A DNA stretch of 64,000 nt from Mactra quadrangularis. Taxonomy: Eukaryota; Mollusca; Bivalvia; Venerida; Mactridae. Within the stretch, counting starts at the first letter, position 1. Each line of letters begins with the position of its first letter. Made by a program: the position numbers and the translations under genes. Shown piece by piece: positions 11,024 through 62,892 of this stretch. The notes under the pieces were generated by a model. The model did no database searches and was not told the DNA's origin. It saw nothing but the letters and a program-made list of their open reading frames with translations. The stretch is taken from NCBI GenBank assembly GCA_025267735.1, contig CM046303.1:34448380-34512379 (forward strand). Direction: 5' to 3'.

Positions 11024-11241
11024 TTTTATTGCATATGTTGACCAATGCATGTAACGATGATTTTTCTACAACAAAAATACTTTTTTCTCGACGTACCGCG
11101 CTATTGTGCACGTTGACGTTACGTCACATGTATTGTTTTGTTTATTTAACGTCGAAACGTTGGAATCTAATAAAAAGTAATAAGTATGTCATAGTGTTGC
11201 TACTATATTACTTGTGTTTGCGAAATTACAAAAATATCAAC

Positions 11242-14999: not shown

Positions 15000-15370
15000 A
15001 ATGAGCCGTTGTTGCGCTGAGGTATCGTGCGTACCCCGCAAGTGGCCCGCAAGATCTCCGTACGATTGTCCACGCTCTATTTATAGGTAAGTGCCGTGCA
15101 TTATCCGCTCGGACATCTACGATTCTAGCCCTTACATGTCCGTACACAACGCTATTTCGCTTAAGTGACCACATCCTTGCGGTCCAACGGCTTATAAGGA
15201 AATCGTTTTCTGTCGTACGGTTCGTTACGAGGGACGTACGGGTCCCGTGAGGCATTCGTATACGGGTCATTCGATACGTATTCCGTTTCTCTTTGTTTTC
15301 TTAACCGGCTTTACGTCATCATCTTATCAGACAAAATGTATACGCCCATCGTCCTTGCGGCGGCCGTACG
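15000..15370. other. CpG-rich segment with recurring CGTACG
   Basis: Composition differs sharply from the flanks: many CG dinucleotides and recurrent CGTACG (about 15058, 15213, 15234, 15364), with TCCTTGCGGYC twice (15173, 15352). An open frame on the minus strand encodes an arginine-rich product without recognisable domains and is probably a by-product of composition. It could be a CpG-rich repeat element or a CpG island; nothing decides between them. Confidence 0.4.
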
Positions 15371-38770: not shown

Positions 38771-41700
38771 GTCATTTTGTCCTTATTCTCAGGTAGGCAT
38801 TTGTCTTAAATGCAAACATACATAAGGAAAACCCACCTATAAATTGATCCTTGCTGTCTAAATACTCATGTAGGTTTCTATCTTATATTAAGACAATATG
38901 TAATTTACCCTATTCTCAGGTAGGTATGTGTCTTAAAAAGAAAACATGCATACATATTGACATTGTCTGTCCAAATGTTCACGTAGGTTTCTCTCTTACA
39001 ATAAGATCACCTTAATATTCAAAACACATAATTATGTCCTTCGCAGGTGGGTTTCTGTGTTAAAAAGATCTTATATATGCACTAATAACACCTTTTGTCC
39101 TTATTTTCATGTAAGTTTCTATTTCTGAAAGAAAAAAACTGTCATACAAGACAGCTTAGCATTTTGCCATTAATCTTGGTTAGGTATTTGGCTTCATACA
39201 AATTGACGTCCTCTGTCAAAATAATAATGTTGGGTTCTTCCTTTGATAAGATGATTTTAATAACTAAACCCTGTCATTCTGTCCTTATTCTCTGGTAAGT
39301 ATATGTCTAAAAAAGAAATCAGATATACAAATTGACATCTTTAGATCTTATTTTCATGCAGGTTTCTATCTTTGAATAAAAAAATCTTTAATACACTACA
39401 ATAAGTCGTTCTGTCCTTGTCTTCTGGTAAGCATCTGACTTAGAAATGATCACATGTATACACCATGTGACATTCTCTGTCCAAATGTTCATGTAGGTTT
39501 CTATCTCTTTGAATAAAGCAACAAAGATTCACTAAAACATGACATTATGTCCTTATAATCAGGTAAGTATCTGTCTCAAAAAAGAAAACATACATACAGT
39601 ATGTTATCTTCTGTCCAAATGTTCCTGTAGGTTTCTATCTTTGAATAAAAAATCTTTAATACACTACAGTAAGTCGTGTTGTCCTTGTCTTCTGGTAAGC
39701 ATCTGTCTTAGAAAGGAACACATGTATACACCATGTGATATCTCTGTCCAAATGTTCATGTAGGTTTCTATCTCTTTGAATAAAGCAACAAAGATTCACT
39801 AAAACATGACATTCTGTCCTTATAATCAGGTAAGTATCCGTCTCAAAAAAGAAACCATACATACAGTATGTTATCTTCTGTCCAAATGTTCCTGTAGGTT
39901 TCTATCTTTGAATAAAAAAATCTTTAATACACTACAATAAGTCGTTCTGTCCTTGTCTTCTGGTAAGCATCTGTCTTAGAAAGGATCACATGTATACACT
40001 ATGTGACATTCTCTGTCCAAATGTTCATGTAGGTTTCTATCTTTTTGAATAAAGCAACAAAGATTCACTAAATCATGACATTCTGTCCTTATAATCAGGT
40101 AAGTATCTGTCTCAAAAAGAAAACATACATACAGTATGTTATCTTCTGTCCAAATGTTCCTGTAGGTTTCTATCTTTTAATATAAAAATCTTTAATACAC
40201 TACAATAAGTCGTTCTGTCCTTGTCTTCTGGTAATCATCTGTCTTAGAAAGGAACACATGTATACACCATGTGACATTCTCTGTCCAAATGTTCATGTAG
40301 GTTTCTATCTCTTTGAATAAAGCAACTTAGATTCACTAAAACATGACATTCTGTCCTTATAATCAGGTAAGTATCTGTCTAAAAAATGAAACCATACATA
40401 CAGTATGTTATCTTCTGTCCAAATGTTCCTGTAGGTTTCTATCTTTGAATAAAAAAATCTTTAATACACTACAATAAGTCGTTCTGTCCTTGTCTTCTGG
40501 TAAGCATCTGTCTTAGAAAGGAACACATGTATACACCATGTGACATTCTCTGTCCAAATGTTCATGTAGGTTTCTCTCTCTTTGAATAAAGGAACTTAGA
40601 CTCACTAAAACATGACATTCTGTCCTTATAATCGGCTTGGTATCTGTCTCAAAAAAGAAAACATACATCTTCTGTCCAAATGTTCCTGTAGGTTTCTATC
40701 TTTTTAAATAAAACAACTTTGATTCTCTAAAACATTCTGTCTTTATTATCAGGTAAGTAACTTTTAAAAAAAAGAAACAATACAAACAGTATGTTATCTT
40801 CTGTCCAAATGTTCCTGTAGGTTTCTATCTTTTTAAATAAAAGAACTTTGATTCTCTAAAGCATTCTGTCCTTATTATCAGGTAAGTATCTGTCTCAAAA
40901 AAGAAGCAATACATACAGTATGTTATCTTCTGTCCAAATGTTCCTGTAGGTTTCTATCTTTGAATAAAAAAATCTTTAATACACTACAATAAGTCGTCCT
41001 GTCCTTGTCTTCTGGTAAGCATCTGTCTTAGAAAGGAACACATGTATACACCATGTGACATTCTCTGTCCAAATGTTCATGTAGGTTTCTATCTCTTTGA
41101 ATAAAGCAACTTAGATTTACTAAAACATGACATTCTGTCCTTATAATCAGGTAAGTATCTGTCTCAAGAAAGAAAACATACATACAGTATGTTATCTTCT
41201 GTCCAAATGTTCCTGTAGGTTTCTATCTTTGAATATAAAAATCTTTAATACACTACAATAAGTCGTTCTGTCCTTGTCTTTTGGTAAGCATCTGTCTTAG
41301 AAAGGAACATATGTATACACCATGTGACATTCTCTGTCCAAATGTTCATGTAGGTTTCTATCTCTTTGAATAAAGCAACAAAGATTCACTAAAACATGAC
41401 ATTCTGTCCTTATAATCAGGTAAGTATCCGTCTCAAAAAAGAAACCATACATACAGTATGTTATCTTCTCCAAATGTTCCTGTAGGTTTCTATCTTTGAA
41501 TATAAAAATCTTTAATACACTACAATAAGTCGTTCTGTCATTGTCTTCTGGTAAGCATCTGTCTTAGAAAGGAACACATGTATGCACCATGTGTCATTCT
41601 CTGTCCAAATGTTCATGTAGGTTTCTATCTCTTTGAATAAAGCAACTTAGATTCACTAAAACATGACATTCTTTCTTATAATCGGCTTGGTATCTGTCTC

Positions 41701-44700
41701 AAAAAAGAAAACATACATCTTCTGTCCAAATGTTCCTGTAGGTTTCTATCTTTTTAAATAAAACAACTTTGATTCTCTAAACCATTCTGTCCTTATTATC
41801 AGGTAAGTATCTGTCTCAAAAAAGAAACCATACATACAGTATGTTATCTTCTGTCCAAATGTTCCTGTAGGTTTCTATCTTTGAATAAAAAAATCTTTAA
41901 TACACTACAATAAGTCGTTCTGTCCTTGTCTTCTGGTAAGCATCTGTCTTAGAAAGGAACACATGTATACACCATGTGACATTCTCTGTCCAAATGTTCA
42001 TGTAGTTTTCTATCACTTTGAATAAAGGAACTTAGACTCACTAAAACATGACATTCTGTCCTTATAATCGGCTTGGTATCTGTCTCAAAAAAGAAAACAT
42101 ACATCTTCTGTCCAAATGTTCCTGTAGGTTTCTATCTTTTTAAATAAAACAACTTTGATTCTCTAAAACATTCTGTCTTTATTATCAGGTAAGTATCTTT
42201 TAAAAAAAGAAACAATACAAACAGAATGTTATCTTCTGTCCAAATGTTCCTGTAGGTTTCTATCTTTTTAAATAAAACAACTTTGATTCTCTAAAGCATT
42301 CTGTCCTTATTATCAGGTAAGTATCTGTCTCAAAAAAGAAGCAATACATACAGTATGTTATTTTCTGTCCAAATGTTCCTGTAGGTTTCTATCTTTGAAT
42401 AAAAAAATCTTTAATACACTACAATAAATCGTTCTCTCATTGTCTTCTGGTAAGCATCTGTCTTAGAAAGGATCACATGTATACACCATGTGACATTCTC
42501 TGTCCAAATGTTCATGTAGGTTTCTATCTCTTTGAAAAAAGCAACTTAGATTCACTAAAACATGACATTCTGTCCTTATAATCGGCTTGGTATCTGTCTC
42601 AAAAAAGAAACCATACATACAGTATGTTATTTTCTGTCCAAATGTTCCTGTAGGTTTCTATCTTTGAATACAAAAATCTTTAATACACTACAATAAGTCG
42701 TTCTCTCATTGTCTTCTGGTAAGCATCTGTCTTAGAAAGGATCACATGTATACACCATGTGACATTCTCTGTCCAAATGTTCATGTAGGTTTCTATCTCT
42801 TTGAATAAAGCAACTTAGATTCACTAAAACATGACATTCTGTCCTTATAATCAGGTAAGTATCTGTCTCAAAAAAGAAACCATACATACAGTATGTTATC
42901 TTCTGTCCAAATGTTCCTGTAGGTTTCTATCCTTGAATATAAAAATCTTTAACACACTACAATAAGTCGTTCTGTCCTTGTCTTCTGGTAAGCATCTGTC
43001 TTAGAAAGGAACACATGTATACACCATGTGACATTCTCTGTCCAAATGTTCATGTAGGTTTCAATCTCTTTGAATAAAGGAACTTAGATTCACTTAAACA
43101 TGACATTCTGTCCTTATAATCAGGTAAGTATCTGTCTCAAAAAAGAAACCATACATACAGTATGTTATCTTCTGTCCAAATGTTCCTGTAGGTTTCTATC
43201 TTTGAATATAAAAATCTTTAATACACTACAATAAGTCGTTCTGTCCTTGTCTTCTGGTAAGCATCTGTCTTAGAAAGGATCACATGTATACACCATGTGA
43301 CATTCTCTGTCCAAATGTTCATGTAGGTTTCTATCTCTTTGAATAAAGCAACAAAGATTCACTAAATCATGACATTCTGTCCTTATAATCAGGTAAGTAT
43401 CTGTCTCAAAAAAGAAAACATACATACAGTATGTTATCTTCTGTCCAAATGTTCCTGTAGGTTTCTATCTTTTAATATAAAAATCTTTAATACACTACAA
43501 TAAGTCGTTCTGTCCTTGTCTTCTGGTAATCATCTGTCTTAGAAAGGAACACATGTATACACCATGTGACATTCTCTGTCCAAATGTTCATGTAGGTTTC
43601 TATCTCTTTGAATAAAGCAACTTAGATTCACTAAAACATGACATTCTGTCCTTATAATCAGGTAAGTATCTGTCTAAAAAATGAAACCATACATACAGTA
43701 TGTTATCTTCTCCAAATGTTCCTGTAGGTTTCTATCTTTGAATAAAAAAATCTTTAATACACTACAATAAGTCGTTCTGTCCTTGTCTTCTGGTAAGCAT
43801 CTGTCTTAGAAAGGAACACATGTATACACCATGTGACATTCTCTGTCCAAATGTTCATGTAGGTTTCTCTCTCTTTGAATAAAGGAACTTAGACTCACTA
43901 AAACATGACATTCTGTCCTTATAATCGGCTTGGTATCTGTCTCAAAAAAGAAAACATACATCTTCTGTCCAAATGTTCCTGTAGGTTTCTATCTTTTTAA
44001 ATAAAACAACTTTGATTCTCTAAAGCATTCTGTCTTTATTATCAGGTAAGTATCTTTTAAAAAAAAGAAACAATACAAACAGTATGTTATCTTCTGTCCA
44101 AATGTTCCTGTAGGTTTCTATCTTTTTAAATAAAACAACTTTGATTCTCTAAAGCATTCTGTCCTTATTATCAGGTAAGTATCTGTCTAAAAAAGAAGCA
44201 ATACATACAGTATGTTATCTTCTGTCCAAATGTTCCTGTAGGTTTCTATCTTTGAATATAAAAATCTTTAATACACTACAATAAGTCGTTCTGTCCTTGT
44301 CTTCTGGTAAGCATCTGTCTTAGAAAGGAACACATGTATACACCATGTGACATTCTCTGTCCAAATGTTCATGTAGGTTTCTATCTCTTTGAATAAAGCA
44401 ACTTAGATTTACTAAAACATGACATTCTGTCCTTATAATCAGGTAAGTATCTGTCTCAAGAAAGAAAACATACATACAGTATGTTATCTTCTGTCCAAAT
44501 GTTCCTGTAGGTTTCTATCTTTGAATATAAAAATCTTTAATACACTACAATAAGTCGTTCTGTCCTTGTCTTCTGGTAAGCATCTGTCTTAGAAAGGAAC
44601 ATATGTATACACCATGTGACATTCTCTGTCCAAATGTTCATGTAGGTTTCTATCTCTTTGAATAAAGCAACAAAGATTCACTAATACATGACATTCTGTC

Positions 44701-46690
44701 CTTATAATCAGGTAAGTATCCGTCTCAAAAAAGAAACCATACATACAGTATGTTATCTTCTCCAAATGTTCCTGTAGGTTTCTATCTTTGAATATAAAAA
44801 TCCGCAATACACTACAATAAGTCGTTCTGTCATTGTCTTCTGGTAAGCATCTGTCTTAGAAAGGAACACATGTATGCACCATGTGTCATTCTCTGTCCAA
44901 ATGTTCATGTAGGTTTCTATCTCTTTGAATAAAGCAACTTAGATTCACTAAAACATGACATTCTTTCTTATAATCGGCTTGGTATCTGTCTCAAAAAAGA
45001 AAACATACATCTTCTGTCCAAATGTTCCTGTAGGTTTCTATCTTTTTAAATAAAACAACTTTGATTCTCTAAAACATTCTGTCCTTATTATCAGGTAAGT
45101 ATCTGTCTCAAAAAAGAAAACATACATACAATATGTTATCTTCTGTCCAAATGTTCCTGTAGGTTTCTATCTTTGAATATAAAAATCTTTAACACACTAC
45201 AATAAGTCGTTCTGTCCTTGTCTTCTGGTAAGCATCTGTCTTAGAAAGGAACACATGTATGCACCATGTGTCATTCTCTGTCCAAATGTTCATGTAGGTT
45301 TCTATCTCTTTGAATAAAGCAACTTAGATTCACTAAAACGTGACATTCTTTCTTATAATCGGCTTGGTATCTGTCTCAAAAAAGAAAACATACATCTTCT
45401 GTCCAAATGTTCCTGTAGGTTTCTATCTTTTTAAATAAAACAACTTTGATTCTCTAAAACATTCTGTCCTTATTATCAGGTAAGTATCTGTCTCAAAAAA
45501 GAAAACATACATACAATATGTTATCTTCTGTCCAAATGTTCCTGTAGGTTTCTATCTTTTTAAATAAAACAACTTTGATTCTCTAAAACATTATGTCCTT
45601 ATTATCAGGTAAGTATCTGTCTCAAAAAAGAAAACATACATACAGTATGTTATCTTCTGTCCAAATGTTCCTGTAGGTTTCTATCTTTTTAAATAAAACA
45701 ACTTTGATTCTCTAAAACATTCTGTCCTTATTATCAGGTAAGTATCTGTCTCAAAAAAGATAATATACATACACTATGTTATCATCTATTCAATGTTTCA
45801 TGTAGGTTTCTTTCTTACAATAAGACAACTTTAATACACCAAAACTGTAATTTCGGCCTTATTTCCATTTATGTTTCTGCCTTAAATTCAACCTTACATA
45901 CAAGTTGACGTCCTCTGTATATTCATGTAGGTTTCTTTCCTTATGAAGAGCTAACTATATATAATACACTACGGCATGTCATTCTTTTAATAAGTAAACT
46001 CTAATAACCAAAACCATGTCCTTTTGTCCTTATTTTCAGGTAAGCATCTGTCCTTAAAAAAACCATACAAAATGGTATCATTGATCATTATTTCCATGTA
46101 GTTTTTATCTTTGAATAAGATATTTTTTATACACGACAACATGTCAATCTGACCTTATTCTTGGTTCGGTATATGTCTCTAAAATGAAAACTTACATACA
46201 AATTGACACATTCTGTCCAAATGTTCATGTAGGTTTATATCTTTATAAAAAGACAACTATAATACACTACAGCATATCATTCTGTCCTTATTCTTTGAAA
46301 ATTATCCGTCACAAGAAGAAAACACACGTACAAATTGTCACTATAGGTCCATAATTTTATGTAGGTTTCTATCTTTGAAAAAATACATTACTTTGGGTCC
46401 TGTAGGTTCTTATCTTATAATAATATAACTTTAATGCACTACAACATGTCATTCTGTCCTAATTTTCAGACATAAAAAAGAAATCAAACACGTTAATTGA
46501 CATAATCGGTCCTTATTTCCATGTAGAATTCATTCTTCGAATAAGATGAGTTTAATACACTTTATCATGTCTTTCTCTCGTAGATATTAAATGGTTGTCT
46601 GTTTTAATAAGATTTTAAACACACTTTTATGACTTGTCCATTTGTCCTTTTTTCTATGTTGATTTCTATCTTTAAGTAAAATATCTTAAT
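38771..46690. repeat. Satellite array 2, higher-order unit about 268 bp
   Basis: The motif TCAGGTAAGTATCTGTCT recurs with spacing 267-269 bp (39560, 39827, 40096, 40364). Each 268-bp unit holds four related submonomers of about 67 bp, beginning TTCTGTCCTTATAATCAGG, TTCTGTCCAAATGTTCCTG, TTCTGTCCTTGTCTTCTGG and TCTGTCCAAATGTTCATG. Units in 39.4-45.8 kb are very alike and both edges are diverged. Shorter variants with CGGCTTGGTATCTGTC interrupt the order. A block at about 40070-41760 is repeated about 3.3 kb further on (43363-45060) with the same series of rare variants. No coding capacity. Confidence 0.92.
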
Positions 46691-47430
46691 GTATGATTTG
46701 TTTTCATTTGGGAGTTTTTTGTAACAGCATATTCAATTTTTAATGAATAATACAACACATATCTACATAGTGATCAATGTATCAGTAAAAGATTGGAAAA
46801 TTTTAAGAACTATATTTACCTTAAATAAATAGATCCGTGATATGTTTGAATCTTTTTCAAATCAAATCAGTAGGCATTTTATATTATACTATTTGTTCGG
46901 ATCTATCGTTAAATATATATTTATGAAGTTGTTGTATTCAATGCAAATTAAGATAATAAAAATAATCCAAACTTCAGCATATCGTAAACATTGTAGTATT
47001 GTTTTTATTACATTCAATGACAATTTGATAATTAGATCATACAGAGGCACAATTTTGAATGAAGTCTTTCTAAAATCACTAAGTTATTTAAGTTTTTGAC
47101 TTTGTATCAAATGTACCAATCGTCTGCCACAATCCTAACTATATAAACAGTCTGTATTATAGCGACATGGTCAGATAACTTTTGAACATACAGAAATGAT
47201 CTATACTTTAATATACCCAATCACATACAGTTTTAATAACATATTCATTGTATGTAGAGTATATTGATAACGTTTTCGACCCTTAAATTAATATAAAAAC
47301 AACAATTGTTAAATACATGTAATTAGTATTAATGATGCTTGATAACGATGTACAAAACGATAACCGACTTGATGAAGGTAAAAGTGTGGAACTTGATAGC
47401 TCTCAATTAAAAAAAAAGAAAAGTGTCAAT
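46691..47430. other. Gene-free AT-rich stretch
   Basis: Non-repetitive DNA after array 2. An open frame at 46842-47099 has no recognised domain. Confidence 0.4.
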
Positions 47431-47858
47431 AATTCTGAGCAATCTAGTGAAGGACCCAGTTTACTGGGGGGATAGCTAGATCGGAATTATATGTAAAACA
47501 TAATTCTGAGCAATCTAGTGAAGGACCCATTTTATGGGAGGATAGCTAGATCGGAATCATAGAGTCAAAACAGATAATTCTGAGCAATCTAGTGAAGGGC
47601 CCATTTATGGGAGGATAACTAGATCGGAATTTTTTGTAAACGTAATTCTGAGCAATCTAGTGAAGGACCCATTTTATGGGAGGATAGCTAGATCGGAATT
47701 ATAGAGTCAAAACTGGTAATTCTGAGCAATCTAGTGAAGGGCCCATATACGGGAGAATAACTAGATCGGAACTACTCTTTAAACTTATAAATTAATACAT
47801 AGTTCTGAGTAATCTAGTGAAGGACCCAATCTATGGGAGGATAGCTAGATCAGACTCT
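47431..47858. repeat. Six copies of a hairpin-forming repeat
   Basis: Copies begin at 47431, 47502, 47576, 47644, 47718 and 47801 (spacing 68-83 bp). Each has AATTCTGAGCAATCTAGTGA, AGGACCCAT, ATGGGAGGATA and GCTAGATCGGAAT. The ends pair (ATTCTGA with TCGGAAT, ATCTAGT with ACTAGAT) around an inner stem CCCAT/ATGGG. In copy 1 the inner stem is CCCAGT/ACTGGG, changed on both sides. The spacers between copies vary far more than the paired core. No known RNA family was matched. Confidence 0.78.
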
Positions 47859-48937
47859 TAAAAAACAGCAATGATTTACCAAATACTATAGGTACTAGTT
47901 ACTATTCTCGTATGGTTGAATGTAAATGATGTTCATAGTACTAAGTCTTGCTAGGGTGCTGCTTACATGTATATGCTTAAAACAAATTTTAATAAAATAC
48001 AGTGGTGTCCTAAATTTTCTTTACATATGTTTTTTTTTCATATTTTCTCCTCGTTTTAAAAACACACATTTTGCTTAGTTTTTATGTATAATGTTTGGAC
48101 ACCAGTGTATATGTAACATCGGCAACCTTTTGTTTCATTGAATCTATTGGTTTTTTAAAACAATCTCTCTATAATGAATTATGTTGTTGGTAACAAGGAT
48201 GTGAAAGGTATTTTGGTATAGCTCATTTATGTATATAACTTTACTGATTGGTTTACAGATCATACGTAACTGAATCATTTTTGATATTTTTATAAATACC
48301 AGCATTGTGTCATAAATAGCATTGTGAACTGACATTGGTAATTGGTATAGAGCTATATGCTTCATAGCTGATGATTAGATAGACGTTATTAACTGATATG
48401 ATATTGTTATAATATTATGCATTCAGGAAGTTTTGTAAATATTGTGTTATCATAATTAATTTGAAACGATATTGTTATATTTGAAATAGCGAGTTAACGT
48501 GTGCATAAACTCAGTGTAATTAATCATGTTATAGTCCATGCAATTTAATTATATTTTCTTTAAGTAAACATTATGAGGACCTTTAACTATTATATGCACT
48601 TCAATGATTCAATACTGTGTTTTGTGTATGTATGTATATGTATATTCAAGTGAAAAAGTTCTTAGATTTTGCCAATCTTTTCTGACTGATTTTTGCTCTA
48701 ATTTTAATTACAGTTTTTATTGATGTGATTTCCAATTGATGTTGCACAATTTGTTCAATATGCTGCTAAAACTTCAAAAAACCAAACTGACCTCTAACTC
48801 TCTGTCTGGTCACAGTTTCGCACCGTGATATAAACATAGATTTCCTGTGAGTTTTCTCACCAATGGCTTTTGACTCTTGGGTGGATCCTTCCTAACTTAT
48901 GTAGGTGATTCCAGATGGTAGTCCACATTGGTAGGTT
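47859..48937. other. Gene-free AT-rich stretch
   Basis: No recognised gene or repeat. The short minus-strand open frame at 48144-48365 has no support. Confidence 0.4.
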
Positions 48938-49294
48938 TCACCAAGGGCTTCTCACGTTTAGAAGAATCCTCCTTAATATGTGTTGGGAATTTCCTCCTCC
49001 TTGGGGTCGTTCCTCCTCACCTGATGATATTGAATATATATCTTGGTCTACATATGTTGGGGATCTTTGATGTGAGCTACTACCGGTTGCTGCGTCTTGC
49101 ACAGACTTCGGGAGACTTTGGGTCCTCAACCTCACATCCTGGCACATAGTAGTTGGAAGGCAATCCTGTACTGGCTTCACTTTAGGAACATGCACCCTAT
49201 TTTTTCCCTTGTCTCGGTTTGATATGTGTTCCAAGATCCAAGAGGCTTTAAAATGGAGTTTAGACTCTTCCTGTATGTCAATTATCCAACGCAA
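48938..49294 (-). pseudogene. Unrecognised open frame downstream of the gag relic
   Basis: 118-residue frame with a polar, basic composition and a SSGEEERPQGGG stretch. It lies on the same strand and just beyond the gag-like relic, past the foldback insertion at 49352-49807, so it may be a later part of the same retroelement (for example the C-terminal end of gag). No zinc-knuckle (CCHC), protease or polymerase motif is seen. Function not assignable. Confidence 0.25.
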
Positions 49295-49351
49295 ATCACG
49301 CTTAGATTTGGCGAGGGCATATTGATGACATAAATAACTATTGATGTCATC

Positions 49352-49807
49352 CGAGGTGTGTTCAACAATGCGGGCGCTCGCTCGAGCGCCCGCCTCGCGA
49401 ATTGTTATGTTATTGAACGACTGCGAGCGCTCATTCTATAAATAGTAGAAGGTGAAGATATCGGTAAGTCAGACCGTTTGTGTACAGAATGGCGAGCGCT
49501 CGCTATAAAAATCCAAGACCGAAGTTTACATCGATGTAAATCCCTTTGAAATACGATAAATACACAGAAGGCTTGAGATTAAAGCGTTGTATATTTCGTA
49601 TTTGGTTATTTTAAATCTGTTATATTTTTTTTCAATGTACCGATTTGAGTACCGGTACCAAAACGAAACGGTATTTACCGGAATTTATATAACAATTTAT
49701 AAGCGAAACACCTCTCGAGCTGTATCGCAAGCGCACGCGCGAGCGCCCGCGTTCAAAACGTGGGCGCTCGATGTCGCCCCGAGCGCTTGCATTGTTGAAC
49801 GCACCTC
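49352..49807. mobile_element. CpG-rich foldback inserted in the gag relic
   Basis: Left GAGGTGTGTTCAACAATGC and right GCATTGTTGAACGCACCTC are inverted repeats with one mismatch. Both are followed inside by GAGCGCCCGC-type clusters (GGGCGCTCGCTCGAGCGCCC on the left). The element is far richer in CG than its surroundings. The relic's coding signal resumes on both sides, which supports a later insertion. Target duplication not identified. Confidence 0.68.
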
Positions 49808-51716
49808 AGGTGTTAACCCAACTGATGACCCTTTTTATGTCCTTGGGTCCCTTGTTGCCCTTATAGCTGCCCAATTGTATTTGTAACTTTTTATTTTCCT
49901 GATGGCTTCATCAATAGATCTAACATATAGATTTGACACATATAAGACTGCATCTTTATCGGTAATACCATATGGCAGAACCTTCTAACAATGAATTCAT
50001 CATTGAACTCTTCAGCTTTAACAGCTTATGTTTCAAACCTTTCCCTGAACTCTTTCAAGGTTTCCCCATTGTGTTGTCGTATTGACATCAATTGGGCCCT
50101 GTATGCTTCGGTTTTCTTCTCTACTATCAAATCTCTTCTCGAATTTGTCAAACAAGTTCGTGAATTCTATGTTAGGATTCCGTTGAATTAGGTATGCATA
50201 GTACACATTAGCAGTGTCAGTAAGGCAGAAACTAAAGTTGTCAGTTCGCTCTCTTGCTGACCAACCATTTTGTCTGGCAAAAAATTGAAATTTGCTGAAA
50301 AAAGCAAACCAGTTACTCTTTTCATTGAATACCATAGTTTTTGGTATGTTACCCATTGATTTCGTAGGCAACTTTTCATTACCAAAAAAGAAACCATACA
50401 TACAGTATGTTATCTTCTGTCCAAATGTTCCTGTAGGTTTCTATCTTTGAATATAAAAATCTTTAATACACTACAATAAGTCGTTCTGTCCTTGTCTTCT
50501 GGTAAGCATCTGTCTTAGAAAGGATCACATGTATACACCATGTGACATTCTCTGTCCAAATGTTCATGTAGGCTTCTATCTCTTTGAATAAAGCAACAAA
50601 GATTCACTAAAACATGACATTCTGTCCTTATAATCAGGTAAGTATCTGTCTCAAAAAAGAAAACATACATACAGTATGTTATCTTCTGTCCAAATGTTCC
50701 TGTAGGTTTCTATCTTTTAATATAAAAATCTTTAATACACTACAATAAGTCGTTCTGTCCTTGTCTTCTGGTAAGCATCTGTCTTAGAAAGGAACACATG
50801 TATACACCATGTGACATTCTCTGTCCAAATGTTCATGTAGGTTTCTCTCTCTTTGAATAAAGGAACTTAGACTCACTAAAACATGACATTCTGTCCTTAT
50901 AATCGGCTTGGTATCTGTCTCAAAAAAGAAAACATACATCTTCTGTCCAAATGTTCCTGTAGGTTTCTATCTTTTTAAATAAAACAACTTTGATTCTCTA
51001 AAACATTCTGTCTTTATTATCAGGTAAGTATCTTTTAAAAAAAAGAAACAATACAAACAGTATGTTATCTTCTGTCCAAATGTTCCTGTAGGTTTCTATC
51101 TTTTTAAATAAAACAACTTTGATTCTCTAAAGCATTCTGTCCTTATTATCAGGTAAGTATCTGTCTCAAAAAAGAAGCAATACATACAGTATGTTATCTT
51201 CTGTCCAAATGTTCCTGTAGGTTTCTATCTTTGAATAAAAAAATCTTTAATACACTACAATAAGTCGTTCTGTCCTTGTCTTCTGGTAAGCATCTGTCTT
51301 AGAAAGGAACACATGTATACACCATGTGACATTCTCTGTCCAAATGTTCATGTAGGTTTCTATCTCTTTGAATAAAGCAACTTAGATTTACTAAAACATG
51401 ACATTCTGTCCTTATAATCAGGTAAGTATCTGTCTCAAGAAAGAAAACATACATACAGTACTTTTCATTACCAAAATTAACGTGTTCTCTACCATTCTGT
51501 TTCTGGATCTGTCCAAGGGCCTGTCATTCACTAATTCCATTTATTCCGCCGCCCTTGCAGGTCTCTTAAAACCATTGACGGATGTTCTTCTTTCACCATC
51601 TTGCACATATTCTTCGTTGGATCTTCTCTTTCTTGCTGCGTCCCTGTATTGTCGAACCGGAGTGTCCTCTTATAGGTTCATTCTTGTTAGACGTGGAATT
51701 GTCAAGTAACTGGTGA
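49808..51716 (-). pseudogene. LTR-retrotransposon-like gag relic, interrupted by satellite DNA
   Basis: The minus-strand frame from about 50390 to 50030 contains FFSKFQFFARQNGWSARERT, then LTDTANVYYAYL and FTNLFDKFEKRFDSREEN, the usual gag layout of Ty3/gypsy-class elements. Downstream, in shifted frames, VRRFCH and TDKDAVLYVSNLYVRSIDEA continue it. Upstream coding-like sequence (RKRRSNEEYVQDGERR) lies at 51540-51660, beyond the satellite block 50388-51459. Frameshifts and stops are present, and no LTRs, protease or polymerase were found. It is a dead fragment of a transposable element. Confidence 0.6.
50388..51459. mobile_element. Transplanted block of the 268-bp satellite with flanking direct repeat
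   Basis: About 1072 bp, close to four higher-order units, of array 2 sequence lies inside the gag relic. ACTTTTCATTACCAAAA occurs at 50371-50387 and again at 51460-51476. The A-run and one A may belong to the satellite, so the true duplication is 12-17 bp. The block starts AAGAAACCATACATACAGT and ends AAGAAAACATACATACAGT, the same phase of the unit, so it holds whole units plus about 19 bp. The order of variants (TTTAATATAAAAATC, GGCTTGG, TCTTTATTATCAGG, GAAGCAATAC, CTTAGATTTAC) follows blocks at 40.2-41.2 and 43.5-44.5 kb. Confidence 0.82.
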
Positions 51717-51719
51717 ACT

Positions 51720-53075
51720 GCTTCGCATCTTACCGCTAATAATTTTTAAAAGACGATCTCTGACAATGTAATCACCCATACCATGCACCACAGGAACCCA
51801 TTGGTGAATCACAACTTATATAGCCCAGAGTGCATTGTATATTGTATAATCATATAATAATAATTATAGTGGTATTGATAATGATCATAACAATAATAAC
51901 AATGATAATTATAGCTATTGCTTACACATACCAGTCATCGCCTCAGTGTGTATTTTCTTATTCCGTTTTCACTGCCACCTGTCTTTCTTATGTCTAGAAT
52001 AATACAGATAATATTATAAATTTTATGCATACTGACAAATCACATTTTTATACCCACTGCAAAGTACAAATCCACCACTTAAAGTCAAAAGTAACATGAT
52101 TGTAATACATGTAGTTAGAACTGCGATTTTTGTTACCTTAGAAACGAGCTCAACAACATGAAACTCAATCAGTGCTCATATATACATGTTAATATTTTGC
52201 TTTTTCAATTGTTTTGAAAGGATTCCCATAACTAGGACCGTATTTACTTATTCTATAATAAAGCATGTCCTTTTTGAGTTTAGAATATGTTTATTTTATC
52301 TCCACGGAAATAATTCAAACAATAAATAAGTTCATGGTATTGTGTTGCTACATTTTATATTATAACTTCGAAATACTTGATTAAGCTTTCTTTGGAATTG
52401 CAGAGGGATTTTAAAAAAAAAACATAAATATTCAATTTCTGGAATTTGTTACCTTGGCAAACAAATACTCACCATAAAAAAGCGATTCCATTATGTGACA
52501 AAATACGTATATAACTATAAAACTATCAATTTAGAGAACCAGTTTAAATAGAGATCAATATTTCCAAATTTAGCCATTCATTTTATACTTTTGCCAGTGG
52601 TTCATATTTCACCCTATATTGTTAAAATATTAAGGCTGGGTACATTTGTAATTAATGATAAATTTTCCTGTCGTATGATAGAGTGTGAGCCACTTTTGCT
52701 GTAGGATCAAATTTAGGGGAAATAAACAAACTACTTCGCATCGATTAAATGTTATACGAGGGTTGATCCAAAAGTTCGTATAATGGCTTTAAAAATTATT
52801 GTTAGTGGTAAATATAAAAACAAAAACTATGCAGTAAATAAATTTAACATGGGTGTCATATACTTGTAAAAAATTAAACGTCTACGTCAAACAGATATCA
52901 CACAATTTAACATTTAATACACATACCCAGACAGATGCAGGGGAGCAATACGTCCACAGCGGCCTAAAATATCTTTCGTATAAATGATATTTTGCTATCA
53001 CATCATACTCTTTGTAATTTATAAGAAGATCCATAGAAATCACTAGATAGTTAAAGAGAATTTCGCATTTCATAG
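51720..53075. other. Gene-free AT-rich stretch with a short AATAATAATTATA tract
   Basis: A decayed trinucleotide tract lies at 51846-51915. GAGGGTTGATCCAAAAGTTC at 52758 resembles a mariner-type terminal repeat but no partner end is seen. No gene recognised. Confidence 0.4.
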
Positions 53076-53145
53076 ATATTTTGTTTGTTTGGGTTTTACG
53101 GCGCACCAACACAGAAAGGTCATATCGCGCCGAGTTTCATAGATA
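53076..53145 (-). mobile_element. SINE 3' tail fragment
   Basis: TTGTTTGTTTGGGTTTTACG, then GCGCACCAACACAGAAAGGT and CATATCGCGCC, is the reverse complement of the type B 3' end (GTCATATGACC..., TTAAACCC, AAACAAAC) in degenerate form. 5'-truncated. Confidence 0.45.
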
Positions 53146-54038
53146 TAAAGTCGCATTAAAATTTGAATCAACTCTATTGAATAGTTTATCCAAACTAAAT
53201 ATGAACTGTCGAGAAAAATTGTACATTGTATTTAGATTTGTTGAATCTTGTCTTGCTGCTGTAGAAATAACTTTTTAAGATAATCGTTGATGTTTTTATG
53301 GAAGGGTATACAAAATGTAGTTTCTGCTTAAATTTGTCACACTGTACTTGAGTCACCCGTAGATTTCATTATCTTAAATAGAGACATAAAGTTATTTATC
53401 AATCATTTCCGGGGTATTGAATTTGACAAAAACTTGTATTAACCAATGTGTTGAAACTGAAGTTCATGCATGATACCCTCCGACTCGTTGTGATGTTTAA
53501 AAGTGCTTTTAAGTCCTGATTCGTTTGCGTATATGTATAATACACATTAAGAGGAATGGCTTGGTGCAGTTTTATCAATGTTTCAAAACTAAGGATTTCT
53601 TGAGTGGAACATAGAGGTTAATGCTAAGAACACAGTGATACAAATTGGGTGGGTTCAGGATCATGAGGATTAGGGCTTAGCTTTTGGGGACATTGATATG
53701 TTTTGTCTTAATTAGGTAAAATAATTTTTATTGCAAGTCAGCCATCTTGGAATAATGGTGATCAGAGACTTTCTTTAGCCCTGGTGAATAGGTGGGAATG
53801 GTAGCGGAAATGACCGCCCTAAACGGACCAGTGAACCCCCATGGTGTAAAAATCCCTGCCCGTGCCCCTCCCTGTACCTTATGCATGCTTGTCCGTGCTC
53901 CGTGTCCCCTACTAATCTGCTTTTCTTTTTCAGCACATCTTTTGTTATATTTTGTTAATTTCCTTTGGTATAATAAACTTGCCAGTTTAAAATACATATT
54001 TCTTTCGGGTTTCTCTTCTCGTGTTTTGTCTATTTCAG

Positions 54039-54089
54039 ATTCTGACTGATACCTTGGGTTAAGAAATATGTACACGACAATGCTACAAG
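54039..54089 (+). other. Candidate exon (weak)
   Basis: 51 bp between a good acceptor (GTGTTTTGTCTATTTCAG) and a good donor (CAAG|GTAAGTCTC). It holds an ATG followed by MYTTMLQ, which would meet a stop at once if joined to the next candidate at 55055. It could be a 5' UTR exon with a short upstream ORF. No homology seen. Confidence 0.25.
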
Positions 54090-54289
54090 GTAAGTCTCAA
54101 TAAAAGCCAAACTTTCACAAAATATCTTGAACTTAATTTTTAATTTCAAGTTTTTATTTTGAACGATAGTTTTACTAATTTAATAGTGTCAAAAGAAATC
54201 CAGTACAGTAGTTGTTTTAAAGCCATAATTATCATATAAAAAATGACGAGTATGTTTGAATGATTTTTAATTCTATTGTTATGATTTCA

Positions 54290-54540
54290 GTTTGTTAATA
54301 AACTGTTTATTTTAGTCTCAAGTGAAATATGAGTTTGCTTTTTTAAGTTTATAATACAACCCATTATAGTTTTTTATGTTGAAACATTTTATGTACTTTC
54401 AATTTTAATATCACCTAGACTAATAACAGTCGTTCCAACAGCATTGACTCGATATCAAGAGTAAAAAACGCTAGAGTCTGTTATTGAATTCCTACTTCTG
54501 TTTGTTTGTAAAACTTTTGCCTGATTTTAAAGTTAAAAGT
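54290..54540 (+). repeat. Dispersed repeat, copy 2 (paralogue at 14500-14765)
   Basis: Same order of matched pieces as copy 1: TGTTAATAAACTGTTTATTT, TAGTCTCAAGTGAAATATGA, AATAACAGTCGTTCCAACAG, CGCTAGAGTCTGTTATTGAA and CTGTTTGTTTGTAAAACTTT. Same strand as copy 1, about 40 kb away. No coding or terminal-repeat signature. Confidence 0.6.
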
Positions 54541-54717
54541 TTAAAAGTTAAAGTGCGGTTTAAAGTCTGCTTCCATCTACATGTTCAGTCGACTTTACAA
54601 TCTTGTACAATAACTCCTGGTCACTGAAATCACCCTCAGGCAGGCGATCCTTCACAGTACCCATTTACACCTGGGTGGAGTGGAATAATTGTAGGTTAAT
54701 TTCTTGCTCATGGAAAT

Positions 54718-54795
54718 TAGCAGTTCCCCTAGCGGGGATCGAACCCGGGACCTCTCGATCCCAAAGCGCGCGTCCTACCACTGGACCACTGCTTA
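54718..54795 (-). tRNA. tRNA-like sequence, probable SINE head
   Basis: Minus strand: perfect box A (TGGTCCAGTGG) and strong box B (GGGTTCGATCCCCGC), ends AGCAG and CTGCT able to pair as part of an acceptor stem. The anticodon arm pairs poorly around TTTGGGA. More tRNA-like than the type A-C heads, but the mispaired arm argues against a working tRNA. Confidence 0.45.
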
Positions 54796-54805
54796 TATTT
54801 AGGTA

Positions 54806-54982
54806 CAGTACAACCTCTCTTGAACAACACCCACTGGGAGGAACTAAAATGCATTGCTGTTCAGAGGTTGTTGCTCTGCAGAGGTCAACTTCCATTACAA
54901 ATGCGCCAAACGTGATTGCAAAAATCTGTTAATATTGTTGCACAGAGGATTTGTTCTGTAGAGCGACGCAGAGGTTATACAG
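54806..54982. mobile_element. pogo/Tigger-like MITE with TA target duplication
   Basis: The ends CAGTACAACCTCT and (reverse complement of the right end) CTGTATAACCTCT are inverted repeats with two mismatches, flanked by TA on both sides (54804-54805, 54983-54984). CAGAGGT recurs several times inside. The TA duplication and CAGT-ACCTCT ends resemble pogo/Tigger-class DNA transposons. 177 bp, non-coding. Confidence 0.65.
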
Positions 54983-55054
54983 TATTCAGCTTCTAATTTT
55001 ATATCGTAGAGAAACATTCCTGTATGGTTCTTATCCCCATATGTTATATTTTAG

Positions 55055-55752
55055 GTTGAAATGGATGTCTATGGATCTAGACGAGTAAGAAAATACAAAA
55101 TTTGTTCCATTTGGAGATGGATTGGTGAGGTAATGAAAACATTACCTTAAGATATAAGCTAGAGTGGTAAGTACTATCAAATTCTCCGAAATTTTATCTA
55201 TCAGCCTTAATGATGTTTATGAACATCAATGAAAATATCGTTGTTGTACTATTGCGTCACTCTTCATAGAAAGAAAATTTACAGGTATTGATCAGTTATC
55301 AGTAGCATCTTATAATATACTTATTCTAACCCGAGTTGGTTGCGCCCAGTTAGTAGCGCGCCGGGATTAGGAATCTCTGTGTGCCGAAGGGGTACTGTTT
55401 CGAGTCTCACTCAGAGAGGTTATATCCTTCCGTGAAAATTTGACAGTTATGTCAATTTTTCTTCATTTATTAGGTATATGGAGAAGTTCCGACGTTGTGG
55501 AAAGGTGGGCAAGTACTGGCTATAGACAAGTGTCCAGGATAAATAGGTTAGGTGCGCTGGACGCTGTAAAGAAACCAAAATGTGTTGACAATGCTTTAAA
55601 CCTAGTATAAAAAGTACTTATTCTAATGAGACTTTGATATATAATTTCAGGTTAATTGCTATGGACACAAAGATTCAGGAAACATATCAAGAAATTTCGA
55701 TGTTTTCAGTCAACTGCTACAGAAGAACGAACGAATATCAAGATCCGTTTGC
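55055..55752 (+). other. Candidate two-exon fragment, faintly sulfotransferase-like
   Basis: Exon candidate 55055-55129 (acceptor TATGTTATATTTTAG, donor GAG|GTAATG) has ATG at 55061 and encodes 23 residues (MDVYGSRRVRKYKICSIWRW then IGE) in phase 0. Exon candidate 55651-55752 (acceptor GATATATAATTTCAG) continues in phase 0 and contains LLQKNERISRSVC before a stop. The pattern NERxSRxxSVC resembles the start of the catalytic exon of the real gene (NKERLSRIHSVC), also phase 0 after an acceptor. No catalytic motif follows. It could be a truncated paralogue or chance similarity. A SINE lies in the supposed intron. Confidence 0.2.
55330..55615 (+). mobile_element. tRNA-headed SINE (type A), near full length
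   Basis: Head with GCGCCCAGTTAGTAGCGCGC and a decayed box B (TTTCGAGTCTCACTC), body CCTTCCGTGAAAATTTGACA and TATATGGAGAAGTTCCGA, then AAGTACTGGCTATAGACAAG, TTAGGTGCGCTGGACGCTGT and the tail TTTAAACCTAGTATAAAAAG. Confidence 0.75.
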
Positions 55753-55757
55753 ATGTT

Positions 55758-55904
55758 ATAATTTGGCCTGTTCATTCCTAACAAGTCGTCTCGGACTTTT
55801 TGTCCTTGAGATGTTTGTTGGCCAATTCCATGCCCTTGATATTATTTGGCCTGGTAATTAACAAGTCGTCTCGGACATTTTGTCCTTGAGATGTTTGTTG
55901 TCCA
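55758..55904 (+). repeat. Tandem duplication of about 80 bp
   Basis: ATTTGGCCTG, then AACAAGTCGTCTCGGAC, TTTTGTCCTTGAGATGTTTG and TTGNCCA occur twice at 80-bp spacing (55761 and 55845 onwards) with few differences. It directly follows the candidate fragment ending at 55752. Recent local duplication; function unknown. Confidence 0.72.
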
Positions 55905-56255
55905 AGTACAATTTTCGAATGTTCGGTGTTGCTTTTTACTTAGAACACATTCATAAGTATCACAACCATATCCCCTGGCAACATTTGTTGCACGGAGTCA
56001 AACGGCGGATATTTGTGACAACTTGTGCATCGAGTACAGATGTTTGCATCGTCCATGGTTGAATTTTATTTACCTGTCGCTGCCTCAAACATGAACCCTA
56101 CCTATTTAAATACTCGATAATATTCGTTCTTAATTACCGGTTTATTATTTGTGAACTATCGCAAGTATGGAAATGATTGGAATTCGGGATATATGTATGC
56201 GCCACCGACAGTTGAATACAATTTAACTATGAACGATTCGTCAATATCTGAAGGG

Positions 56256-56551
56256 AGTTCAGTTACCACGAACGTTACAGAACGTTCCGTAACGATACAT
56301 TGGGAACTCCTCGGCCATTTGCTGCAAATCTCCATATTTAGACGCTATTTAGAAAGCACCGGTGTTAAAGTAAACACATATATGGTCGTGTAGGGAATGA
56401 GTGATGTTTTGTCTTTAATCCATTAATTTTGAAACATCACTCATTGCCTTAACGATCACATATTTGTGTATTAGATTAGATTATTAATGGCCGAGGAGTT
56501 CTGAATGTATCGTTATGTAACGTTCTGTAACGTTTTGTTTGATTGAACACG
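56256..56551. mobile_element. Composite foldback element, copy 2 (inverted relative to copy 1)
   Basis: Reverse complement of the architecture at 11911-12220: AACGTTACAGAACGTTC-type arms, a core from CATTGGGAACTCCTCGGCCA (56298) to CCGAGGAGTTCTGAATG (56507), and the inner pair AATGAGTGATGTTTTG and AAACATCACTCATTGCC. A frame open across the left half is incidental. Confidence 0.72.
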
Positions 56552-56799: not shown

Positions 56800-59700
56800 G
56801 AAGTTCCGTCATCCAACATAAAGTTCTACATGAGACATCGCTTCAGTTGCTTCAGAACTTCCGTTATCCTAGACAGCTCTATATAGCAGGACTAGAGTTA
56901 CGGAACTTCCGTTATCCTAGACAGCTCTATATAGCAGGACTAGAGATACGGAAACTTCATCACCCTAGAAAACTCTATATAGCAGGACTAGAGTTTCAGA
57001 ACGTCCGTTATCCTACGAAACTTCCGTTATCCAAGACAGCTCTATGTAGCAGGACTAGAGATACGGAACCTTCGTCACCCTAAGACAGTTTATATGGCAG
57101 GATTAGAGTTACGGAACTTCCGTTATCCTAGACAGCTCTACATAGCAGGACTAGAGATACGGAACCTTCGTCACCCTTGACAGCTCTATATGGCAGTACT
57201 AGAGTTACGGAACTTCCGTTATCCTAGACAGCTCTATATAGCAGGACTAGAGGTACGGAACCTCCGTCACCCTAGACAGCTCTATATAGCAGGACTAGAG
57301 TTACGGAACTTCCGTTATCCTAGACAGCTTTATATAGCAGGACTAGAGTTACGGAACTTCCGTTATCAGAGACAGCCTTATATAGCAGGATTAGAGTTAC
57401 GGAACTTCCGTTATCCTAGACAGCTCTTTATAGCAGGACTAGAGTTACGGAACTTCCGTTATCCTAGACAGCTCTATATAGCAGGACTAGAGATACGGAA
57501 CCCTCGTCACCCTTGACAGCTCTATATGGCAGGACTAGAGTTACGGAACTTCCGTTATCCTAGACAATTCTATATAGCAAGACTAAAGATACGAACTTCA
57601 TCACCCTTGACAGCTCTATATGGCAGGACTAGAATTACGGAACTTCCGTTATCCTAGACAGCTCTATAAAGCAGGACTTGAGATTCGGAACCTTCGTCAC
57701 CCTAGACAGCCATATATAGCAGGACTAGAGTTACGGAACTTCCGTTATCCCAGACAGCTCTATATAGCAGGACTAGAGTTACGGAACTTCCGTTATCCTA
57801 TAAAGCTCTTTACAGCAGGACTAGAGATACGGAACCTTCGTCACCCTAGACAGTTTATATGGCAGATTTAGGGTTACGGAACTTCCGTTATCCTAGACAG
57901 CTCCATATAGCAGGACTAGAGTTTCGAAACTTCCGTTATCCAAGACAGCTCTATATAGCAGGACTAGAGTTACGGAACCTTCGTCACCCTAGACAGTTTA
58001 TATGGCAGATTTAAAATTACGGAGCTTCCGTTATCCTAGACAGCTCCATATAGCAGGACTAGAGTTTCGAAACTTCCGTTATCCAAGACAGCTCTATATA
58101 GCAGGACTAAAGATACGGAACCTTCGTCACCTTAGACCGCCATATATAGCAGGACTAGAGTTACGGAACTTCCGTAATTCTAGACAGCTCTATATAGCAT
58201 CAATAGAGATACGGAACCTTCGTCACCCTAGACAGCTCTATATAGCAGGACTAGAGTTACGGAACTTCCGTTATCCTATACAGCTCTTTATGGCAGGACT
58301 AGAGTTACGAAACTTCCGTTATCCTAGACAGCTTTATATAGCAGGACTAAAGTTACGGAACTTCCGTTATCCTAGACAGCTCTGTATAGCAGGACTAGAG
58401 TTACGAAACTTCCGTTATCCTAGACAGCTCTATAGCAGGACCAGAACTACGTCACCCTAGTCAGCTCTATATGGCAGGACTAGAGTTACGGAACTTCCGT
58501 TATCCTAGACAGCTTTATATAGCAGGACTAGAGTTACGGAACTTCGTTTATCCTATACAGCTCTTTATGGCAGGAATAGAGTTACGAAACTTCCGTTATC
58601 CTAGACAGCTTTATATAGCAGGACTAAAGTTACGGAACTTCCGTTATCCTAGACTGCTCTGTATAGCAGGACTAGAGTTACGAAACTTCCGTTATCCTAG
58701 ACAGCTCTATAGCAGGACCAGAACTACGTCACCCTAGTCAGCTCTATATGGCAGGACTAGAGTTACGGAACTTCCGTTATCCTAGACAGCTTTATATAGC
58801 AGGACTAGAGTTACGGAACTTCCGTTATCCTAGACAGCTCTATATAGCATGACTAGAGATACGGAACCTTCGTCACCCTAGACAGCTCTATATGGCAGGA
58901 CTAGAGTTACGGAACTTCCGTTATCCTAGACAGCTCTAAATAGCAGGACTAGAGTTATAAAACTTCCGTTATCCTAGACAGCTCTATATAGCAGGATTAG
59001 AGTTACGGAACCTCCGTTATCCTAGACAGCTTTATATAGCAGGACTAGAGTTACGGAATTTTTGTTGACTTAGACAGCTCTATATAGCAGGACTAGAGTT
59101 ATGAAACTTCCGTTATCCTAGACAGCTCTATAGAGCAGGACTAGAGTTACGGAACTTCCGTTATCCTAGTCAGCTCTTTTAGCAGGACTAGTTACGAAAC
59201 TTCCGTTATCCTAGACAGCTCTTTACAGCAGGACTAGAGATACGGAACCTTTGTCACCCTAGACAGTTTATATGGCAGATTTAAAATTACGGAACTTCCG
59301 TTATCCGAAATAGCTCCATATAGCAGGACTAGAGTTTCGAAACTTCCGTTATCCAAGACAGCTCTATATAGCAGGACTAGAGATACGGAACCCTCGTCAC
59401 CCTAGATAGTTTATATGGCAGGATTAGAGTTACGGAACTTCCGTTATCTTAGACAGCTCCATATAGCAGGACTAGAGTTTCGAAACTTCCGTTATCCAAG
59501 ACAGCTCTGTATAGCAGGACTAGAGATACGGAACCTTCGTCACCCTAGACAGCTCTATATAGCAGGACTAGAGTTACGGAACTTCCGTTATCCTAGACAG
59601 CTCTATATAGCAGGACTAGAGTTACGGAACTTCCGTTATCCTAGACAGCTTTATATAGCAGGACTAGAGTTACGGAACTTCCGTTATCCTAGACAGCTCT

Positions 59701-61282
59701 TTATTGCAGGACTAGAGTTACGGAATTTCCCATACTAGACAACTCTATATAGCAGGACTAATGTTACGAAACTTCCGTAATCCTAGTCAGCTCTTTATAG
59801 CAAGACTAGTTACGAAACTTCCGTTATCCTAGACAGCTCTTTATAGCAGTACTAGAGATACGGAACCTTCGTCACCATAGACAGCTCTATATAGCAGGAC
59901 TAGAGTAACGGAACTTCCGTTATCCAACACAGCTCTATAAAGCAGGACTAGAGTTACGGAACTTCCGTTATCCTAGACAGCTTTTTATGGCAGGAATAGA
60001 GTTACGGAACTTCCGTTATCCTAGACAGCTTTATATAGCAGGACTAGAGTTACGGAACCTTCGTCACCCTAGACAGTTCTATATAGCAGGACTAGAGTTA
60101 CGGAACCTTCGTCACCCTAGACAGCTCTATATAGCAGGACTAGAGTTACGGAACTTCCGTTATCCTAGACAGCTCTTTATAGCAGGACTAGAGATACGGA
60201 ACCTTCGTCACCCTAGACAGCTCTATATAGCAGGACTAGAGTTACGGAACTTCCGTTATTCTAGACAGCTCTATAAAGCAGGACTAGAGTTACGGAACTT
60301 CCGTTATCCTAGACAGCTCTTTATGGCAGGAATAGAGTTACGGAACTTCCGTTATCCTAGACAGCTTTATATAGCAGGACTAGAGTTACGGAACTTCCGT
60401 TATCCTAGACAGCTGTTTATTGCAGGATTAGAGTTACGGAATTTCCCATACTAGACAGCTCTATATAGCAGGACTAAAGTTACGAAGCTTCCGTTATCCT
60501 AGTCAGCTCTTTATAGCAGGACTAGTTACGAAACTTCCGTTATCCTAGACAGCTCTTTATAGCAGGACTAGAGTTACGGAACCTTCGTCACCCTAGACAG
60601 CTCTATATGGCAGGACTAGAGTTACGGAACTTCCGTTATCTTAGACAGCTCTATATAGCAGGACTAGAGATTCGGAACCTTCGTTACCCTAGACAGCTCT
60701 ATATGGCGGGACTGGCGTTACGGAACTTCCGTTATCCTAGACAGCTCTATATAGCAGGACTAGAGATACGGAACCTTCGTTACCTTAGACAGCTGTACAT
60801 GGCAGGCTAGAGTTACGGAACTTCCGTAATCCTAGACAGATCTGTATAGCAGGACTATAGTTACGAAACTTCCGTTATCCTAGACAGCTCTATAGCAGGA
60901 CCAGAACTACGTCACCCTAATCAGCTCTATATGGCAGGACTAGAGTTAGGGAAATTCCGTTATCCTAGACGGCTCTATAGCATGACTACAGATACGGAAC
61001 CCTCGTCACCCTAGACATTTTATATGGCAGGATTAGAGTTACGGAACTTCCGTTATCCTAGACAGCTCCATATAGCAGGACTAGAGTTTCGAAACTTCCG
61101 TTATCCCAGACAGCTCTGTATAGCAGGACTAGAGATACGGAACCTTCGTCACCCTAGACAGCTCTATATAGCAGGACTAGAGTTACGGAACTTCCGTTAT
61201 CCTAGACAGCTCTATATAGCAGGACTAGAGTTATGGAATTTCCGTAACCCTAGACAGCTCTATTTAGCAGGCCTAGAGTAAC
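56800..61282 (+). repeat. Satellite array 3, 48-bp unit (16 codons)
   Basis: About 90 units of 48 bp: GAGTTACGGAACTTCCGTTA, TCCTAGACAGCTCTATATAG, CAGGACTA. Each unit carries the 13-bp palindrome ACGGAACTTCCGT. Two main unit types alternate irregularly, TTACGGAACTTCCGTTATCC and ATACGGAACCTTCGTCACCC, the latter with a broken palindrome. As 48 is a multiple of three, one frame reads ELRNFRYPRQLYIAGL or EIRNLRHPRQLYIAGL per unit for long distances, but indels break it many times and there is no start context, signal peptide or flanking exon. I treat it as satellite DNA and not a protein gene. Confidence 0.9.
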
Positions 61283-61496
61283 GGGTGATACTGCACTTTA
61301 CCGGTATGTAGTTATTCACCGGAAGTATAAATATAACCCAAACCCTTCACCTGTTTGAATAAAAGGTGACTTTATTTGAATTTCATGATATTTTCTGTCT
61401 CTTATCAGGGGCTGCTGCTCCCGTAACCCCGATTTTTAACGGTCACCGTCAATACTGCTCGATGAAAAATGCAAATGGCGCATGCGCAGTAGGCGA
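61283..61496. other. Unique 214-bp island between two satellite blocks, promoter-like motifs
   Basis: Non-repetitive DNA between the 48-bp and 46-bp blocks. It contains CACCGGAAGT (ETS-type site) at 61318 touching TATAAATA at 61326, and GCGCATGCGC (NRF-1-like palindrome) at 61478-61487 near the right border. Motif identity is from sequence only; activity is inference. Confidence 0.4.
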
Positions 61497-62870: not shown

Positions 62871-62892
62871 TTTTCGAATTCTACATAATTTG

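Follow-up and report, generated by a model that had tools for sequence, protein, structure and literature searches.

A block of 268-bp satellite inserted, with duplication of its target, into one copy of a large multi-copy repeat in the bivalve Mactra quadrangularis

Here, we found that a block of 268-bp satellite has been inserted, as a single copy-specific event, into one copy of a large repeat in the genome of Mactra quadrangularis, with duplication of 11-17 bp of the target and without any loss; this is read from the other loci, where the target is uninterrupted. We consider it probable that a staggered break in that copy was patched with satellite DNA. The window, that is, the whole stretch of 64,000 nucleotides analysed, corresponds to C11:34448380-34512379 of the genome searched (979 Mb, 447 contigs), and positions below are those of the window unless a contig is named.

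The exact 17-mer ACTTTTCATTACCAAAA is present at 50371-50387 and again at 51460-51476, both on the plus strand and identical to each other. As the original prediction held, it borders exactly on either side a plus-strand block of satellite (50388-51459) of the same type as array 2, a long satellite array elsewhere in the window; a search of the window allowing up to three mismatches found no third match. In 3,000 pairs of random 40-bp neighbourhoods, the longest word in common was 14 bp, and words of at least 11 bp occurred in only 7 pairs. CAAAA, the last five bases of the left copy, is also found in the satellite, ahead of the donor segment, and the first base of the right copy, A, is likewise common to the satellite. 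Once this junction microhomology (5 bp on the left, 1 bp on the right) is counted, the true target duplication is 11-17 bp. As compared to the empty paralogues, the filled copy retains its target without deletion and without filler.

The 17-mer has nine exact matches in the genome, two at the insertion and seven at empty paralogous sites on contigs C1, C4, C5, C7, C14, and C17 (twice), where left flank, one 17-mer, and right flank follow each other uninterrupted; the reversed 17-mer, used as a control, matched once. Further empty targets were found on C12, C15, and at C5:10.77 Mb; in these, a TTC-type tract lengthens the target word by 3, 3, and 6 bases, respectively. The target is thus empty in all ten of the other loci read, seven with the identical 17-mer and three with TTC-length variants. 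An empty site with a single 17-mer had been proposed as a check in other individuals and species, and it was found as paralogues in the same genome. The related copies do not all carry the satellite at this place, as the ten loci show, and none of the nine exact matches lies inside the satellite. A genome search with the block (202 matches listed; the best 40 of 465 candidates scored) gave, among the matches listed, eleven loci with at least 84% identity to the block, of which one is filled (C11) and ten are empty, a count of paralogous array-bearing loci at that level that leaves out array-less copies and arrays at about 65-77% identity. These sites also bear on an assembly error or local misjoin, which we hold to be very improbable: repeats collapse easily, but a misjoin would hardly duplicate an exact target word that the sister copies hold once, and a single 70-Mb contig contains the block together with its two flanks.

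The target had been described as a retroelement relic with a gag-like frame continuous across the empty site. This minus-strand frame occupies 50036-50386 on the left of the insertion, where the flank shares 97.1-99.7% identity with the empty-site paralogues, and the same frame continues at 51464-51523 until its stop. It is indeed open across the joined site, but so are four of the six frames there, and its openness is uninformative and was dropped as evidence. One of six stop-free pieces, of 46 aa, reached PF03732 (Retrotrans_gag) with an E-value of 0.0048 and 17.5 bits, as compared to a cut-off of 24.1, and this piece is in a different frame from the one named gag-like. The stop-free pieces adjoining the insert match nothing, searches for protein relatives and for solved structures of the gag-like frame found none, and in a test for a Ty3-type gag the target fell short of the curated Retrotrans_gag cut-off. 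A gag-like identity of the target segment is at best weakly suggested by its sequence. The 3-bp steps of the TTC-type tract in the C12, C15, and C5:10.77 Mb copies would preserve a reading frame, a weak hint that they may be the trace of a former coding sequence. The satellite did enter this target segment, as proposed, but the gag label is weak and the segment belongs to a multi-copy repeat of more than 50 kb; a lone relic was rejected, as paralogy runs on both sides in that repeat.

On the evidence of paralogy that continues on both sides, this one repeat comprises array 2 and several other tandem arrays as well as the gag-like segment. It spans 11173-64000 of the window and runs onward to at least 64377, and copies, each partly read, are present on C1, C4, C5, C7, C12, C14, C15, and C17. 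From 11173 to its end, the window is matched, with interruptions, by the copies on C1 and at 30.6 Mb on C17, while the other C17 copy matches from 26639 onward, with one rearranged piece. The C1 copy aligns with 45007-49359 at 96.6% and with 51460-56415 at 99.0% identity; near the target, flank identity between contigs is mostly 98-99%, with 93.7% on the right for the C5 copy. At the left terminus, the window copy diverges at 11173 from the copies on C1 and C17, a point 2 kb within the stretch that these two share. At the right terminus the C17 copy (30.6 Mb) stops where C1 and C11 continue together (255 of 260 columns, about 220 of these lying past the point where C17 stops). Just left of the divergence point of the window copy there is an open frame with a Sulfotransfer_2 domain (9415-10518; E-value 1.4e-34).

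Substitutions private to a single copy number 11 to 21 per copy in 4860 ungapped two-state columns of five copies, with 2 shared-variant columns. The corresponding values are 3 to 6 private per copy and 4 shared for seven copies (C5 left out) over 1491 columns, and 0 to 4 private per copy and 2 shared for eight copies over 569 columns. By these counts, the divergence pattern of the copies is close to a star, as after a burst.

Several other features were observed within the window. An array of about 70-bp units with CCCATTTATGGG-like hairpins (47429-47771) is found in other copies too, whereas long arrays of a 46-48 bp unit (56855-62871) align only partly between copies and are, for this reason, probably variable in length. 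At 49360-49805, the window copy has a 446-bp insertion that the paralogues aligned there lack; its ends are inverted (CGAGGTGTGTTCAACAATGC-like) and its duplication measures about 2 bp, whereas an 8-bp duplication at this insertion was rejected after comparison with an empty paralogue. Copy-specific insertions of 6526, 856, 1839, and 1590 bp lie at 15125, 20244, 30418, and 52968, respectively, with overlaps of 4-8 bp; the 856-bp insertion is at TTAA, and two of the four have clear inverted ends. There were no Rfam matches in the window. The satellite, searched by exact 30-mer in prokaryotic genomes and viral contigs and as the block in phage records, gave no match, and a scan of the block for promoters and terminators used bacterial patterns, which are uninformative here.

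Array 2 occupies 38760-46620 on the plus strand, with a core of 268-bp satellite and edges that decay to about 65-76% identity. It includes two candidate donor segments, A (39849-41188) and B (43143-44480), both on the plus strand and both colinear with the block except for one extra 269-bp unit; B is a higher-order duplicate of A about 3.29 kb away, with 12 differences in 1341 columns. The original prediction that the order of rare unit variants follows blocks of array 2 some 6-10 kb away therefore holds as to colinearity with A and B, but the window's own array has the extra unit, and gapless matches in sister copies are better. Aligned without gaps to its own array (40117-41188), the block shows 15 differences; if one 269-bp unit is skipped, 2 in 336 and 3 in 736 remain. 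The C1 copy holds a gapless counterpart from position 19150396 (9 differences in 1,072 columns, including one missing base), and C17 holds two gapless counterparts of 1,072 bp with 10 and 12 differences; these three are the best non-self matches among those listed. Further matches at 97-99% among those listed are on C15, C4, C17, C7, and C14, while the base-by-base comparison covered C1 and C17. Because a gapless counterpart exists in the C1 array, the four-unit order need not have arisen during insertion, and the loss of a unit through misannealing in that step was dropped, as the C1 copy has the same order without a skip. The donor need not be local; the window's own array in an earlier state and the array of a sister copy are both candidates. 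Only 50573C in the block differs from all five compared segments, and the insertion looks young on this account. Taking the proportion from 11 window-private substitutions in 4860 columns, a stretch of 1,072 bp should have gathered about 2.4 since this copy arose.

Other satellite arrays show relationships of their own. The 66-bp array at 33717-36138 is related to the approximately 65-bp subunits of the 268-bp satellite in array 2, with a local score of 39 against a best of 24 in 300 shuffles. Among the matches listed, arrays at about 65-76% satellite identity are found on C2, C3, C6, C8, C10, C13, C16, C18, C19, and others, and are perhaps older relatives of the carrier repeat. The array of the C14 copy is broken by about 1.3 kb at C14:26148103-26149424, with a 10 bp overlap in block coordinates; of this break, the right side was read.

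The block measures 1,072 bp, that is, four whole units plus about 19 bp, and the 19 bp at its start and the 19 bp at its end share the same phase and agree at 18 of 19 positions, in agreement with the original prediction. The same-phase ends and their overlap had pointed to a reintegrated extrachromosomal satellite circle, or a rolling-circle product of whole units, and circles are a proposed route of satellite dispersal in the parts of PMC5844308 drawn on here. The proposal does not fit the ends themselves, which differ at one of the 19 bases: GAAACC stands in the first and GAAAAC in the last, and A, B, and the C1 counterpart have the same variant at the corresponding place, whereas staggered opening of a circle would yield two copies of one sequence. 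By chance alone, the two ends would fall in phase to within 19 bp with a probability of about 0.145, which makes the phase match not significant, and a gapless linear counterpart exists. The circle was rejected as a first choice because the differing ends each match their own place in a linear array, and we regard it as improbable, although the block may be a fragment of a larger circle. By its variants, the block is an excerpt of a linear array. Judging from the same parts of PMC5844308, the case resembles TCAST1 dispersal in Tribolium in that a short satellite block lies outside the main array; it differs in its linear end variants, where circles were proposed for TCAST1, and in its duplication, which exceeds those, mostly of 3 bp, of transposon-related TCAST elements. 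On the right, the block ends within the small palindrome CATACAGTATG, and on the left it starts 11 bp ahead of this motif. Junctions of one mollusc satellite likewise fall in a palindrome in the portion of PMC5139131 consulted, and a tie between the palindrome and the formation of the junction is only a lead.

At a single target-satellite junction drawn at random, 5 bp or more of microhomology turned up with a frequency of 0.007 (20000 draws), or about 0.014 over two junctions. A primer end CAAAA would also pair over 5 nt with the U-run of a minus-strand satellite transcript, as in a scenario of retroposition, in which such a transcript would be reverse transcribed at a LINE-type nick, with ...CCAAAA priming on its U-run and a duplication as the result. 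The duplication of 11-17 bp and the clean ends without deletion are in line with this route, which the original prediction had linked to the duplication. However, the right end is tail-less and the six-A run on the left belongs to the satellite itself (CAAAAAAG), while the tail of a minus-strand transcript would read T, not A, on the plus strand. Moreover, no nick position within the 11-17 bp ambiguity reads TTTT^A, and no isolated high-identity block occurs in 271 kb of other copies and their surroundings, where the only matches are three stretches, each about 287 bp long and 76% identical, next to the 66-bp array. With no tail, no TTTT/A nick, and a 5-bp junction microhomology, LINE target-primed retroposition in particular is not supported. 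LINE groups without poly(A) tails exist, and for this reason retroposition is kept as an unlikely route rather than a negligible one. Among classes of templated insertion, as far as the parts of PMC5110952 used here describe them, class 1 combines a poly(A) tail, a TTTT/A site, and a target duplication, of which the present insertion shares only the duplication (here well above 5 bp); with class 2 it shares microhomology and the lack of poly(A), but it has a duplication that class 2 lacks.

Neither junction has an added tail or filler, and inverted ends were not seen. This bears on transposition by a transposase or by a Helentron-like element containing the satellite. According to the parts of PMC7492417 drawn on here, satellite-like arrays ride in oyster Helentron elements, and our case is similar in having satellite arrays inside a dispersed repeat and empty sites as a test. 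By the same account oyster Helentrons leave no target duplication, whereas the block has a 17-bp one; Helentron ends were not seen, and the carrier repeat exceeds 50 kb. No terminal inverted repeats were found in the block by eye, and it starts and stops inside a unit. For the block, transposition appears largely refuted and is extremely improbable; for the large carrier repeat it may still apply.

The integration of satellite as a single block at a staggered break with target duplication, as originally envisaged, is supported, and our preferred reading is a patch of DNA repair. The gag-like segment of one copy of the large repeat would have broken with ends staggered by 11-17 nt, and the patch would consist of 1,072 continuous bp from a satellite array of the same repeat family, either its own earlier array or that of a sister copy. 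Template switching or strand-annealing synthesis may have produced the patch, starting at the 3' end ...CCAAAA with 5 nt paired to the satellite, or a linear fragment may have been captured instead; filling-in of the stagger on both sides would then give the target duplication. Repair with a DNA patch fits the duplication, the lack of deletion, the microhomology at the would-be priming 3' end, and the linear donor. The sequence itself establishes the insertion, its empty sites, the duplication, the microhomology, and an origin from linear satellite, while the break, a template made of DNA, and the route of repair are inferred. Five further copy-specific insertions were looked at as an internal control; all show inverted ends or short duplications (about 2-8 bp), features that the satellite block lacks. 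On the other side, the right junction has a microhomology of only 1 bp, and duplications of 11-17 bp are also made by LINE integration.

Repair-mediated duplications captured inside human transposons provide the closest comparison. In the parts of PMC2671141 (Pace et al. 2009) drawn on here, some of them show microhomology and a target duplication (4-21 nt) without poly(A), and copying from 3' overhangs is described. The insertion shares with these cases copied genomic DNA inside transposon-like sequence, junction microhomology, and a known empty site, and with some of them a target duplication without poly(A). The insert is copied and near-identical arrays persist, with the exact donor only a candidate, alongside a paralogous empty site and a 5-bp microhomology. 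In contrast to those cases, the donor here is a tandem satellite that belongs to a multi-copy repeat and is not unique, and 1,072 bp exceeds the maximum of 619 bp given there for proximal patches (distant ones reach 3,424 bp). The proximal class there has its donor within 5 kb, whereas the window's own array segments are about 6-10 kb off and better gapless matches lie on other contigs. Most patches in the same source have deletion or filler, and among the tail-less cases in its table, microhomology plus target duplication without deletion, filler, or poly(A) occurs in 3 of the 39 proximal ones and in none of the 12 interchromosomal ones; we count this rarity and the 619-bp proximal maximum against the repair-patch reading. 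All in all, the insertion is probably an ordinary DNA-repair patch, an unusually clean case of a known type of event. Our search of the literature on satellite blocks, target duplications, templated insertions, and giant elements found no equal case, which is no proof of absence.

The arrival of satellites at new sites has mostly been argued from old, blurred junctions. Here, one genome holds both junctions, ten empty sister loci, and near-identical linear arrays, and the models of circle, retroposition, and repair therefore give different predictions that can be checked in sequence. We tentatively suggest, as a possibility less likely than its converse, that the repeat of more than 50 kb spread its arrays to many chromosomes in a recent burst and then served as both donor and target of satellite patches. 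If true, one large mobile unit would both disperse satellite arrays and seed new ones.
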